Below the pieces are notes generated by a model. It was not told where the DNA came from, did not search any database, and worked only from the letters and a program-made list of their open reading frames with translations. A program made the translations under genes and the position numbers. 64,000 bases of DNA from Mesostigma viride (Eukaryota > Streptophyta > Mesostigmatophyceae > Mesostigmatales > Mesostigmataceae), in the NCBI GenBank assembly GCA_009746045.1, contig RPFO01000716.1:29978-93977 (forward strand), read 5' to 3'. Of the stretch, positions 3 to 12,000 are shown piece by piece. Numbering within the stretch: the stretch's first letter is position 1; each line of letters starts with the position of its first letter.

Positions 3-3000
3 GCCGCTGAGACGTCCGCGGCGCTCGCCTCGCGCACCGCTGGTTTTGAGGAGGAACGGCGGCGCCAGAGGCAGCGGGAGAGGAAGGGCGGACGCCGGCA
101 GCCGCCAGCATTACCCACAGGGCCTTACGTGTTCCGCAAATTCCGCACCCTCGAGCTGCCCGGGGTCAGTGTATAAGTAGACAGGCGGTTTCTGCCAGGT
201 TCCTGGAGTTGCCTGGGGTCAGTGTACATATAGACATGTGGTTTGTCCCTGTTTCATGCTGCACTTGGGTTGCTGATGCTATGTACCACATTTCATCACG
301 CTTCATGAATACTCCTATCTAAATACGCACAATAACTGGTAGAGATGCTGGCACCAAGGGGCAGTGGGATGAGGCCACCTGAGGGGCTTCGGTGTGACGG
401 TATTTGGTTAAGGTTCGTGGACATGTCACTCAACTTCGCGCCGCATTTGCTGTAGTTAGAGGGGCTGGGGAGATGACTCTATCGTGTTACGATCCCTATC
501 TGGTAAGACTAAGATGTAGTTGTTATGATCCCTATTTGTTACAACTAGGATTGTAGTGTTATAATCCCTATTTGATAAGACTAAGATTTTTGTGTTATGA
601 TCCCTATTTGATAAAGCTGAATCCAGCCCGGTAAGACGAGCGCGTATCTCCCCCCCTTCCTTCCCTATGAGGAGGGCCCCTCCCCGTTCCCCTGCGTCAT
701 GACAAGCCCCCCCCCCTCCTCCTCCCCCTCCCCCCTTGGTGCGGTCGCGCGTTACTGAGCGGGAAACCCTGATCTCCCTCAAAAGGCCTTTCTGATGTGC
801 TCACGCCTGTTCTCTTATATGCTTCTCATATTTGTGCCGATAGTAGACTCCCTCTACTGTATATGACTCCACATCTGCTGTCTCACTTCATGTGTTCTTC
901 CTATGTGTGCCGACTAGTACTCCCTTTACTGTATATGACTCCACATGTGCTGTCTCACTTCATGGGTTCTTCCTATGTGTGCCGAGGCTCTCCTGGTTGG
1001 GATCGTGCATCCGCCGTAGAAGGGTGCCAACTCTACTGGGCTCTTCCCTGTCGTTGGGGTGCTCCGTGACGCGGGTGATGCAGTGTGATTTGGATTCTTC
1101 GGTGATTCGGGTCCATAGCCTCATGGGTGGCTCTTTCCTGCGTGCATGGTCTCTATGGGGAAACATCTCTGTCCCCACGCGCATGGGCTCTGGAATAGGC
1201 TTCCCGAGGCCAGCCCATTTCCAAGGGGGTAGGATTCCTTTAGTCCTTGGACAGTGTACCCATTCTTCTCCATCCTTTTTTGTTTCTGATTATCCAAGGG
1301 GGTAGGATTCCTTTAGTGCTTGGACAGTGTACCCATTCTTCTCCATCCCTTTTTGTTTCTGATTATCCAAGGGGGTAGGATTCCTTTAGTCCCTGGACAG
1401 TGTACCCATTCTTCTCCATCCTTTTTTGTTTCTGATTATCCAAGGGGTAGGATTCCTTTAGTCCTTGGACAGTGTACCCATTCTTCTCCATCCCTTTTTG
1501 TTTCTGATTATCCAAGGTGTAGGATTCCTTTAGTCCTTGGACAGTGTACCCATTCTTCTCCATCCCTTTTTGTTTCTGATTATCCAAGGGGTTTGGATTC
1601 CTTAGGTCTAGGACAGTGTACCCATTCTTCTCCATCCCTTTTTGTTTCTGATTATTCAAGGGGGTAGGATTCTCTTAGGCCTAGCAGAGTGTATCAATTT
1701 TCCTCTATCCTGTAGTACTCTGATTATCCCCTATGTCTTGATCTGGGTGCTCACACGCTGGCTTCAACCACCCCCGATTTGTCCCCCTGTCTCCCCCATT
1801 GTCCTCATCTCGTCTCCTCCTCCCCCTTCCCCCCCTACTTCATACAATATACCGTTTCAACAAATATACTGTCCTCAGTCCTCATGTTCATCTGACTGCC
1901 CCCACACACCCCGCACGCCCTCTTGCAGCTCCACCCACCCGCGTCGCGCGCGCTTATCATGATGCACACCCTGGCGGCAGACCCTGGCATCCGGGGCATC
2001 ATGAACAAGGTGAGCCAGTGGGTTCTGTTGGTTCTTCCATCCTTTAGCGCTGCTCATGGTCAACGCGATCGGTCGCCGGCCCATCTGAGAATGGGGAAAT
2101 AAGGTGAGATGGGCAGGGGTGTGGTGGTCTTCCCATCCTTTTTTAGCGCTGCTCATGGTCAACGTGATGGCTCGCCCATCTGAGAATGGGGAAATAAGGT
2201 GGGGCAGATGCACTGCGATTCTCCTCGTGGTTAGTTGCTCTTGTTTGGCCTGACAGTAATCATATGCCTTCCCGGCTTAAACCCTATTATCCTTATGGTC
2301 CCGGACAACCCTTTCTTTCTCAGGGTGAAGGGCGAGTTCCTTTCTCAAAGCCAGACGTAGCAACGGCCATGGTTTGCACGCACTGAATGTGCTGTTTGGT
2401 AGGTCTCGCTTCTTCCGTGTTTGGTTTCTCTCTGTGTGCCGCTCCTCCCCTCTTTCCTCATTTTCCTCCCCTTTTCCCTAATTTTCCTGCCCCCTTCTTT
2501 TATTTTTCTGCCCTCTTCCTTTTTTCCTCCCTTCTTCCCTTTTCCCCTGCCCTCTTCCTTTTTTCCTCCCCTCCTCCCTTTTTTCCCTCCCCTCTTCCCT
2601 TTTTTCCTGCCCTCGTTCCCTAATTTTCCCCTCCCCTCTGCCCTTATTTTCCTGCCCTCTTTCGTTAATTTCTCTTCTCTCACTTTATTTATTCCCCTCC
2701 CCTCTTCCCTTATTCTCCTGCCCTCTTTCCTTAATTTCCTCCTCTCTCACTTTATTTATTCCCCTCCCCTCTTCCCTTATTCTCCTGCCCTCCTTCCTTA
2801 ATTTCATCCTCTCTCTCACTTTATTTATTCTCCTCCCCTCTTCCCTTATTCCTCTCCCCCCAGTACCGCTGGACGGTGGGCATCATGACCGAGATGCCCC
2901 CTGTGGGCCTCGTCGGCGTCAGCCCGATGTGCCTCCTCGGCTACAACAAGGTGCGTGCCTGCTGGCGTATTGGAACCAGATGTGCCACGTAGAGCAAGGT

Positions 3001-9000: not shown

Positions 9001-12000
9001 CGGGGCATGGGGGCCGGACGGCGAGGTCGGGGCTGGCGCCGGCGGGGCGGACGCGTCGGCGCTTCCAACCGCACTGGAGACGGTGGCCAGCATTCTGAGG
9101 TATGAATCGCTCCCTTTGCATGCCAGTATTCTGAGGATGTTCTACAGCACCAATATTCTGAGGTGTGCTTGCCGTGGATGACTGTACCAAGGGAGATGGT
9201 GACAAACATTCTGAGGCATGAAGGGATGTCTTGCTTTGCATGTTATGACAGTAGCATTAGGTTTTGGAAGTGCTTTCATGGCATGAATCTCCTGAATTAT
9301 GCTTGGTGTGCATGGACTAGGTGGCGGATGGATGGCGTGACCGTTTGGCCCGCACTTCTAGATCGTATCTGTTTAATGATTGGCTGGTACTAATTGGTTG
9401 GACTGGTTACTAGGGATGGCTTAGGGAAGAAAGCTCTCAATAAGCTATGATGGCAACATGCTGGTTTGTGATTTTACGAGCTGTTGGGTGCCCTCCTCTT
9501 CCTTGTGTTTTGAGGGAAACCTGGGTGCCCTCTTCCTTATTCCTTGTTGTGTACTAAAGGGTCAAATTTACGTTAACGGGTACCCGCAGATGCAGTCACA
9601 TTGTTTTCATAAATTGAATAATAATAATTAATTAATTACTTGGTCCGCGTGTGCAGTAATAAGATTAAAATGTATGGGTTTGGCACATGCGTGATTGTAA
9701 TCTCATGCATGTCCATGTTCCATCCTTTTGGCGTGACGTTGGGGTGGTCATCACTCCGCGCGCGTTGTGCTGTGTCACAGGAACGTGCTCGAGCATCCGA
9801 GCGAGGATAAATTCAAGCGGCTCCGGAAAGTGAGTACCCGGCCTGTGTGCATGGCTCAGCAATCACAGCGAACATGAGTGCAATCAATCAATTATAGCTC
9901 ACGTAACGAGCGCTGACTGGACGTTTGACCCACAGGGAACATGAGGGTGGGGAATGGCTACCGTCACCCTTGTGTTGCAGGAGAATAATTTATTATAAGA
10001 CACTGTGGCTTTGCAAGGCAACCCCCTCTGCTGTGCATTGAGTTAAAACGTTTTTCTTGTCGTTTCAAGGTTGGTTGGGGTCTTTTGGCCACTGGCTACT
10101 GACGTGCTTGTGCTTTAGGAGAATTTCTTTTGAGAAATCAATTAATAGTTTTTCTCTTGCTGCTTTAAGGTTGGGGCTAGCGCGATGCTACCTGTCCGTT
10201 TGCAACATGTGGCTCAAATGCCGCGGCTTGAGGGTACTGTCTGAGATGGAAGAATGGGGTGCGCTTGTGGCAATGGTGTTATGGGCTCCTCCACCATGTG
10301 TTGGCCCATTTTCCGTGCATGTTGGCGTACTTCTCGGTCAGTGGCTTAGCAGGCATCACTATATCTAAAAGCGCTGTCGTAGTATTCAGAGATGGTAATA
10401 CTCAACCAGCTTCTATTTGCCGTCGCTGCGGTCGTGCCTGTGCGTTGTTACCGTTGCCTGTACATTGCCTGTACCTGCGTTGTTACCGTTACAGGACAAC
10501 AAGGCGTTCCAAGCGCGAGTGGGGAGGTACTCTGGTGCGTGTAAAATAAAAAGGTTGTACTGCGACGTGTGTTGGCCCATCTCAGCCTTTGGCATGTGCC
10601 GAGGAGCCATTGTGGGTGGCCGCACAGGTGAAAAGGCGGGCAGGGTAGAAAGGCCTCGATGCTTCAGATCAGTTAGCATATTGCTACAACTATCTGAGTA
10701 TGGTATGAATATGGTACATCTACCACAAAGGTGTCCAAGTGTTTTGAGTCAAACTTCTGTGGTGCCAATTGGTCCGTTATGATTGATTGCGAGAGAGAGG
10801 GAGGGAGAGAGAGAGAGGGAGGGAGAGAGAGAGAGAGAGAGAGAGAGAGAGAGAGAGAGAGAGAGAGAGAGAGAGAGAGAGAGAGAGAGAGAGAGAGAGA
10901 GAGAGAGGGAGAGAGGGAGGGAGGGAGGGAGGAGGGAGGGAGGGAGGGAGGGAGGGAGGGAGGGAGGGAGGGAGCGAGAGAGAGAGAGAGAGAGAGAGAG
11001 AGAGAGAGAGAGAGAGAGAGAGAGAGAGAGAGAGAGAGAGAGAGAGAGAGAGAGAGAGAGAGAGAGAGCTTGTGTGTATGTGTGTGTGTGAAAAAGCCAT
11101 CAAGAGTGATTAAACTTCATGTGACTACTAGTGTGCAAAGGTCGCATCTTGTGTGCGACGGCTTCAAAGTGGGGCGGACAGGGAAAGGTTTGAGGGAGAG
11201 AATATGAGCAGCAGGGGATGACAGAAGGGTATGGTTTTGCAGGCTTAAGGTAAGGGAGATGGTTGGTGCGTAGTCTTTATACTGCACATGGTAGCACGGA
11301 AGTCGTGAAGACAATGGTGTGGTGATCTCAGGCGAGGGAATATGCTGAAATTCCTAACGAGTATTATACCCCATACAGAACGCCTGTGGCCAATATTCCT
11401 ATCTAAGTACCATCAAAATTCCTATCGAGTACTATACGCCATACAGAACGCCTGTGGCCAATATTCCTATCTACCGCCCACCTGCTGGTTGCCAAGTTTC
11501 TGCTTGATTCACTTTGGCACGCATGCTCTGCACCAGGCGCTCGGTGCGCGTGTCTATTCGATACGGGAAGGCAAGGTATCCTTGTGCTCTTTCTTCTACT
11601 ATGACTTACTGGGGTATATGCCTGGCTGCTGCTGGTACCCAGACAATTCTGGGTCTCACAGCGGGAAACCAAGTGAACAGTTTATATGAGTCATTATTGT
11701 TTTAGTTTTTTTTTCAGATTAATTTTTTTTTAGTTATTGCATGATCGGGGTTTCCAGCCAGCTGACTTTTATGGTCAGGTCAAGGGTTCAGCCAACGGAC
11801 CAAGCTTCTGGTTTTCATTTCGGGGGCGGGCGGGGAGCCGGACCCTTGTTCTTGTTCTTGTTCGGGGTCGGGGCCGGGGTCGGGGTCGGGGTCGGGGTCG
11901 GGGTTGGGGTCGGGGTCGGGGTCGGGGTCGGGGTCGGGGTCGGGGTCACGTTCGCGCTCTCGTTCTCATTCTTGTAGTAAATGTCTCCCAAGTTTCATGG

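Follow-up and report, generated by a model that had tools for sequence, protein, structure and literature searches.

Why should the end of an exon, together with the 5′ splice site that follows it, be found again a short way into the intron? The question is raised by a gene for a WLM-domain metalloprotease on the forward strand at the start (positions 1 to 12664; its 5′ end is cut off) of a 64,000-nucleotide stretch of the Mesostigma viride genome (GenBank assembly GCA_009746045.1, contig RPFO01000716.1, positions 29,978 to 93,977), which is referred to here as the window. An earlier note, made from the sequence alone, had pointed out these echoes of exon-intron boundaries and proposed that introns lengthen by tandem duplication anchored at splice donors, leaving competing donors. 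In other genes of the same genome, we found that acceptors are echoed as well as donors, that the copies lie in direct orientation and reach only a limited depth into the exon, and that the mismatches between copies follow a neutral pattern. We think, with modest confidence, that the echoes are left over from small local duplications, tandem or repair-like with insertion, that lengthen introns at both ends; anchoring at donors that leaves competing donors is only partly supported.

Echoes in the metalloprotease gene

The exons of the WLM gene lie at about 1-164, 1929-2009, 2864-2950, 4431-4526, 5140-5193, 6621-6833, 7655-9099, 9781-9829, 10495-10534, and 12486-12664, and the translation of exons 1 to 6 matches the Pfam WLM domain with E = 1.1e-36. 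Boundaries were set by reading-frame continuity, with exons 8 to 10, which we take to be PUB-like, placed by eye. Nine introns were called, with first bases at 165, 2010, 2951, 4527, 5194, 6834, 9100, 9830, and 10535. The repeats reported earlier are all present, each within 4 bases of its quoted place: GGGGTCAGTGTA at 162 and 215; CAAGGTGCGTGCCTGCTGG at 2947 and 2995; CCACGAGCTGGTGAGTA at 4517 and 4582; TTTTGCAGCC[AT]GGTA at 5182 and 5240, with TTCTGCAGCCCGGT at 5470; CAGGTATGGCGA at 6831 and 6877; and ATTCTGAGG at 9092, 9128, 9155, and 9208. The forward strand of the window holds no other occurrences of these words, and the sequence also shows the weaker third copy noted near 4640.

We scored each donor by comparing a 28-base probe (14 exon and 14 intron bases) with the next 250 bases. 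Six of the nine donors scored at least 12, in agreement with the "six or seven of nine" of the earlier note. Donor 1 (164/165; whole feature 162-226) scored 16, its echo lying at 215-226, an offset of 53, with 16 bases of exon and 41 of intron; donor 3 (2950/2951; 2947-3013) scored 18, with an exact 19-base repeat at 2995-3013 (offset 48); and donor 4 (4526/4527; 4511-4726) scored 22, the echo at 4582-4598 (offset 65) being followed by a weaker copy at 4701-4726. At donor 5 (5193/5194; 5168-5483; score 12.5), the echo at 5240-5253 is followed by a further copy at 5455-5483 found by gapped alignment, donor 6 (6833/6834; 6826-6898) sits within a 25-base tandem array with an echo at 6877-6888, and donor 7 (9099/9100; 9076-9222; score 13.5) has spaced echoes at 9128, 9155, and 9208, with an exon part of 24 bases and an offset of 116. 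The donor at 2010 was weak (8.5), and those at 9830 (5.0) and 10535 (6.5) had no echo. Two of the nine acceptors scored at least 9 (14.5 at 7655 and 11.0 near 10494), a count in which the scoring coordinates were 1 to 2 bases off at exon starts 4431 and 10495. The stronger, the exon 7 acceptor (7654/7655; 7486-7676), is echoed upstream at 7486 and 7565, with a weaker copy near 7396 seen by eye; the word AGGTGAC stands at 7486, 7565, and 7653 and was absent from the earlier list.

Among 72 mismatched pairs of donor and intron from this gene, one reached a score of 9 and none reached 10, so that chance was rightly dismissed. However, a score of at least 12 was also reached at 20% of 2536 positions inside the introns, because the introns of the WLM gene are full of local repeats, versus 0.9% of 746 exon positions. 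The proper yardstick for a junction echo is therefore the repetitiveness of the intron itself and not random sequence. Since a fifth of intron positions are repeated and the gene had been chosen for its repeats, a preference for junctions cannot be demonstrated from the window alone.

Echoes at both ends of introns in other genes

To obtain introns chosen without reference to repeats, we searched the assembly (439.9 Mb in 2243 contigs) by spliced alignment to Escherichia coli proteins. This yielded 90 introns, of which 81 were kept after exclusion of those that were shorter than 150 bases or that aligned weakly or ambiguously (7 of 78 at the first stage, 9 of 90 overall). The 81 introns come from 21 loci outside the window: carB, gcvP, gltB, metH, sucA, and 16 FtsH/AAA loci. 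As 46 of them belong to FtsH/AAA paralogues, the genes are not fully independent, and bootstraps resampled loci. Probe size and the 250-base reach had been tuned on the window gene; the score cutoff varied between analyses (10, 11, 11.5, or 12); and low-complexity probes were removed in the class, profile, exon-only, and codon analyses (4 of 81 acceptors in the count of classes below). The coordinate offsets in the window do not affect this set. Twelve of the 13 carB introns agree with the outer sites in the Mesostigma protein P0051 (jgi/Mesvir1), the thirteenth acceptor being 27 bases off, and the spliced carB product is residue-identical to P0051 except for one 9-residue gap and the last residue (by a two-part alignment; the search listing gave 93%). 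One carB donor, at a site that agrees with P0051, has a perfect 28-base copy 41 bases downstream.

With a score of at least 10 within 250 bases, 23 of 81 donors and 19 of 81 acceptors were echoed, 33 introns at either end and 9 at both. Mismatched introns reached the same threshold in 1.9% of 837 comparisons (first 71 introns), and mismatched pairs reached 11 in 1.2% of cases for donors and 0.5% for acceptors, which rules out chance resemblance arising from the splice consensus. Inverted copies at a score of at least 10 were found at 1 of 81 donors and 0 of 81 acceptors. In the first 71 introns, the echo rate was highest at the junction itself (30% of donors, 24% of acceptors), was about 9 to 16% between 60 and 200 bases downstream of the donor, and dropped to zero at 56 to 60 bases into the upstream exon. 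The supposed anchoring of duplication at donors in particular is thus not supported, acceptors being echoed nearly as often.

Two classes of repeat and a limit in the exon

Junction echoes appear to be a mixture of two processes, one giving full tandem arrays, in which homology fills the whole offset, and the other giving short spaced copies. Full tandem repeats account for 76 to 80% of the repeats inside introns, and complete, adjacent units make up 6 of 21 donor echoes (29%) and 0 of 14 acceptor echoes. This class was found at 7.4% of donors versus 6.1% of nearby intron positions (ratio, 1.22; confidence interval [CI], 0.38 to 2.51) and at 0% versus 2.3% for acceptors. Short, spaced direct copies of about 20 to 45 of the outermost exon bases, in contrast, were found at 15 of 81 donors (18.5%) versus 3.6% of nearby intron positions and at 14 of 77 acceptors (18.2%) versus 4.3%, a pooled ratio of 4.64 (bootstrap CI, 3.41 to 6.65). 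Repeats are therefore commoner at junctions than inside the 81 introns as far as the spaced class is concerned, and full tandem arrays show no such preference. The median total length of an echo was 40 bases at donors and 37 bases at acceptors.

We also used 28-base probes lying 4 to 32 bases from the junction, so that the splice signal was excluded, and searched up to 1500 bases of the intron to which each exon belonged. Such purely exonic probes recurred for 13 of 81 donors and 9 of 80 acceptors, where mismatched pairing predicts 0.0 and 0.2. The observed counts include weak hits such as that at position 6115 of locus L048, which has no clear copy of the junction. Eleven of the 13 donor copies lay within 220 bases, and the reverse complements of junction-adjacent exon windows gave 0 matches in their own introns. 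Windows starting 36 bases or more from the junction recurred in only 2 of 320 cases on the donor side and 0 of 323 on the acceptor side at a score of 12; when exons shorter than 110 bases were set aside, the counts were 12 of 49 and 7 of 49 near the junction and 1 of 49 or 0 of 49 for each window starting at least 36 bases away. Thus, the exon source of the echoes tapers off some 40 bases from the junction, and the exon part never exceeded 45 bases among 44 echoes (those of the window included), with offsets reaching 237. Six of eight exon copies with 0 to 3 mismatches in 25 to 30 bases had no similarity on the intron side, as would be expected of direct repeats of some 30 to 45 bases placed around a new insert.

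The junction peak of the spaced class, the sharp limit near 40 exon bases, and the several near-perfect copies that stop at the junction would all be expected if a process linked to splicing, such as break repair at transcribed borders or RNA-templated patching, preferentially copied the outermost 35 or so exon bases into the adjacent intron. We regard such a process as unlikely. The profile of the spaced class leans toward the exon side, but positions immediately within the intron at its donor end are somewhat elevated as well; the depth limit could be produced by selection; and only 81 introns were sampled, more than half of which (46) belong to a single gene family. Moreover, AGGT sites inside introns are not enriched: 2 of 130 had a spaced copy, within the range of 0 to 4.1% of six control words, which speaks against insertion targeted at AGGT. 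For acceptors, the word YYYCAG (5 of 64) was slightly above two control words (2.7% and 3.6%) and far below the 18% of real acceptors. Were splice-linked copying to act at donors and acceptors, placing copies about 100 bases away, exon-intron borders would be hot spots of intron growth with a fossil record, a prospect that we likewise consider doubtful.

Neutral models

Part of the junction enrichment is to be expected because the exon copy cannot decay freely. Simulations of a frozen copy gave junction/interior ratios of 1.25 to 2.16 over all classes and cutoffs and 1.66 to 1.87 for the spaced class. A second model, run forward in time with tandem duplication, deletion, and substitution, gave 1.01 to 1.48 for the spaced class and 0.85 to 1.23 for the full class. 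All simulations used assumed rates and random base composition, and a higher ratio might be predicted if loss inside real introns were faster. The full class fits these models; the spaced class, at 4.64, exceeds every setting tried. A factor of about 2.5 is left over, and either exon-intron borders are the birthplace of the copies or intron interiors lose copies faster than was modelled.

The simplest account, ordinary tandem duplication acting uniformly along genes with the junction excess due entirely to the frozen exon copy, agrees with the lack of junction preference of full arrays, with the existence of young complete units, and with the fall of the junction/interior ratio as stringency was raised (from 2.3 to 1.05 for donors and from 2.0 to 0.4 for acceptors in the first 71 introns). 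However, it predicts a spaced enrichment of at most about 1.9, and under the tandem settings simulated, exon parts longer than 45 bases occurred in 8 to 29% of echoes, versus 0 of the 44 observed. We therefore judge it rather improbable as the sole explanation. When the geometry of a repeat flanking an insert was simulated, exon parts longer than 45 bases were held to 2 to 5%. Because of this, and because six of the eight closest exon copies lack intron-side similarity, staggered-break repair with insertion would, in these models, fit better than tandem duplication alone. Of the earlier claim that introns lengthen by tandem duplication, lengthening by local duplication stands, but the class enriched at junctions consists of short spaced copies, not tandem arrays.

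Fate of the copies

Mismatches between exon and intron copies fell at codon positions 1, 2, and 3 in 23, 20, and 34 cases among 195, 194, and 191 sites. Third positions thus account for 34 of 77 mismatches (44%), close to the 50% predicted if the exon is frozen at nonsynonymous sites while the other copy drifts freely; absence of constraint would give a different pattern (P = 0.03), and two coding copies are rejected. Taken modulo 3 (0/1/2), the offsets of the echoes numbered 4, 3, and 5, with no bias to multiples of three, which speaks against selection for in-frame alternative donors. Reading through to the echo donor, one meets a stop first in 9 of 12 cases and an open, in-frame path in 1 of 12, and in a few copies the GT is shifted by 1 to 3 bases; judged from sequence, the "competing donors" of the earlier note would seldom be usable. 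Because of the unbiased offsets, the stops, and the free-copy pattern of mismatches, the copies have the appearance of neutral relics, not of sites in use.

That the copies serve as decoy or alternative splice sites, or as exon-like sequence that aids splicing, might be argued from the retention of the copied GT in 9 of 12 exon-probed donor echoes and of the AG in 5 of 10 acceptor echoes. It might also be argued from two FtsH paralogues (position 3631 of L032 on contig C2133 and 3934 of L035 on C169), whose echoes lie at +103 and +99 at the same protein position. These echoes resemble each other, while the first 60 bases of the two introns do not align; the echo may be older than the gene duplication, or else the site has been hit more than once. 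Against a function stand the free-copy mismatches, the unbiased frames, and the stops before 9 of 12 echo donors. Functional alternative donors, whether usable in frame or constrained, are thus not supported by the sequence, and we consider a function of any kind very improbable.

Birth of each intron by duplication of an AGGT-containing exon segment, with the echo as the other copy, is a model described for other species (in an excerpt of PMC2891723), but we give it hardly any credence, as neither the intron start compared with the next exon start nor the intron end compared with the previous exon end reached threshold in any of 71 introns, as in controls, with equal means.

Neither did a common insert or introner account for the echoes: comparison of the 90 introns gave 25 cross-matching pairs, 22 of them of low complexity, a survey in which a rare family could be missed. 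For 17 of 20 spacers between copies, no match was found in any other of the 90 introns; the remaining 3 matched other introns, that of gltB 13446 over 26 to 35 bases in two introns. Short shared segments that are not of low complexity were seen in unrelated introns, among gltB 13446, L037 3865, and L045 4565 (26 to 39 bases, 82 to 96% identical) and between carB 4869 and gltB 14261 (32 bases, 94%).

A proposed origin

We propose that the end of an exon and the start of the intron, or the end of an intron and the start of the exon, are duplicated together. The outcome would be either an adjacent tandem copy or a direct repeat of about 20 to 45 bases flanking a new insert of roughly 50 to 100 bases, which repair of a staggered break could leave. 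If the outer splice site is still the one used in RNA, as is probable, the protein would be unchanged, and such events would be tolerated at both ends of an intron and not inside exons. Duplications carrying more than about 45 exon bases are missing, probably since a longer copy would be read as exon or would strengthen the wrong donor. Later, the exon copy would be held by selection while only the intron copy drifts; because it is held, a pair that spans a junction should remain recognizable longer than a pair within an intron.

Several points weigh against this proposal. The 4.64-fold enrichment of spaced copies above the neutral models means that a factor is missing: births near junctions, faster loss within introns, or retention. 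Six of the eight closest exon copies have no similarity on the intron side, so that copies stop near the junction in more cases than plain tandem duplication would lead one to expect. The paralogous FtsH echoes could reflect conservation. No shared insert family or break motif was found in the 90 introns compared or in the comparison of AGGT and YYYCAG with control words. Finally, the Mesostigma repeats are longer than the 4 to 12 bases given for Daphnia in an excerpt of PMC4202315, a comparison in which our probes are blind to repeats of 4 to 10 bases.

Other features of the window and the assembly

A second gene on the forward strand of the window, containing Kelch repeats, has echoes at two donors, both placed by eye. 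The donor at 20625/20626 (feature 20609-20825) has a spaced echo at 20806-20825, and that at 21788/21789 (21771-21897), for which the scoring coordinate was one base too far, has an echo at 21862-21897, a 36-base match with 18 exon bases at an offset of 91.

Within the WLM gene, the WLM and PUB-like parts are separated by a 1445-base, Ala/Gly-rich exon (7655-9099), in which a 21-base unit is repeated in degenerate form at 8618-8727, and the last intron contains a long GAGA-type tandem array of about 70 units (10791-11068). A perfect GATG array of about 171 units lies at 27184-27866. A 1594-residue stop-to-stop frame on the minus strand (51199-55983), in which a hexanucleotide array at 55114-55261 encodes an Asn-Gly repeat, is presumably a Ty1/copia polyprotein, and the open reading frames at 14017-16030 and 28635-32681 we take to be reverse transcriptase fragments of non-LTR elements. 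An Rfam scan of the 64-kb window gave no match.

Elsewhere in the assembly, contigs C2011, C557, C1006, and others carry long intronless, bacterial-looking gltB, fusA, dnaK, sucA, and ftsH frames, which suggests that bacterial contigs were left in. At C1835:870587-891034, methionine synthase exons stand in two tandem copies whose match scores are the same or almost so (223.3/223.3 and 358/357.1 bits).

Relation to known systems

Introner elements insert with target duplication beside splice sites; unlike them, the Mesostigma echoes have no dominant insert family. Tandem duplication covering a splice signal has reportedly served as a route of intron gain in other species. The duplication over the splice signal is alike in Mesostigma, but there the intron existed already and grew, and no new position is implied. 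Direct repeats at opposite intron borders have been interpreted as traces of insertion (excerpt of Rogers and Bendich 2025, PMC11782384). These resemble ours in being direct repeats that involve the exon/intron border; they differ in that opposite borders are compared, and the two opposite-end relations show no excess in 71 Mesostigma introns. In the part of the literature covered, we found no report of same-side, exon-limited echoes at both ends of introns in conserved genes.

Intron lengthening has mostly been inferred from decayed repeats. A copy held in an exon keeps the duplication readable, datable, and sizeable, and such a mark was present in 33 of 81 introns. Mesostigma, a basal streptophyte whose introns average 1142 bases (excerpt of PMC6947507), could be a useful model both of the growth of introns and of the way in which splicing passes over near-identical donors nearby.

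A close parallel is with Daphnia, in which, according to the excerpt cited above, direct repeats from staggered double-strand breaks lengthen newly gained introns, internal repeats being found in 55 of 90 new versus 100 of 617 established introns (PMC4202315). The Mesostigma echoes share with these the direct repeats with inserted sequence between them and the lengthening of the intron as the result, and in Mesostigma, too, the repeats flanking the insert are direct and not inverted. In Daphnia, however, the exon-derived repeats are found at the other end of a newly gained intron, whereas the Mesostigma repeats, of about 20 to 45 bases, lie on the same side, mostly 40 to 240 bases in, at donors and acceptors of introns in conserved genes. 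Since the repeats also differ in length from those given for Daphnia, the Mesostigma pattern would work like staggered-break repair of the Daphnia type, rather than being an instance of it.

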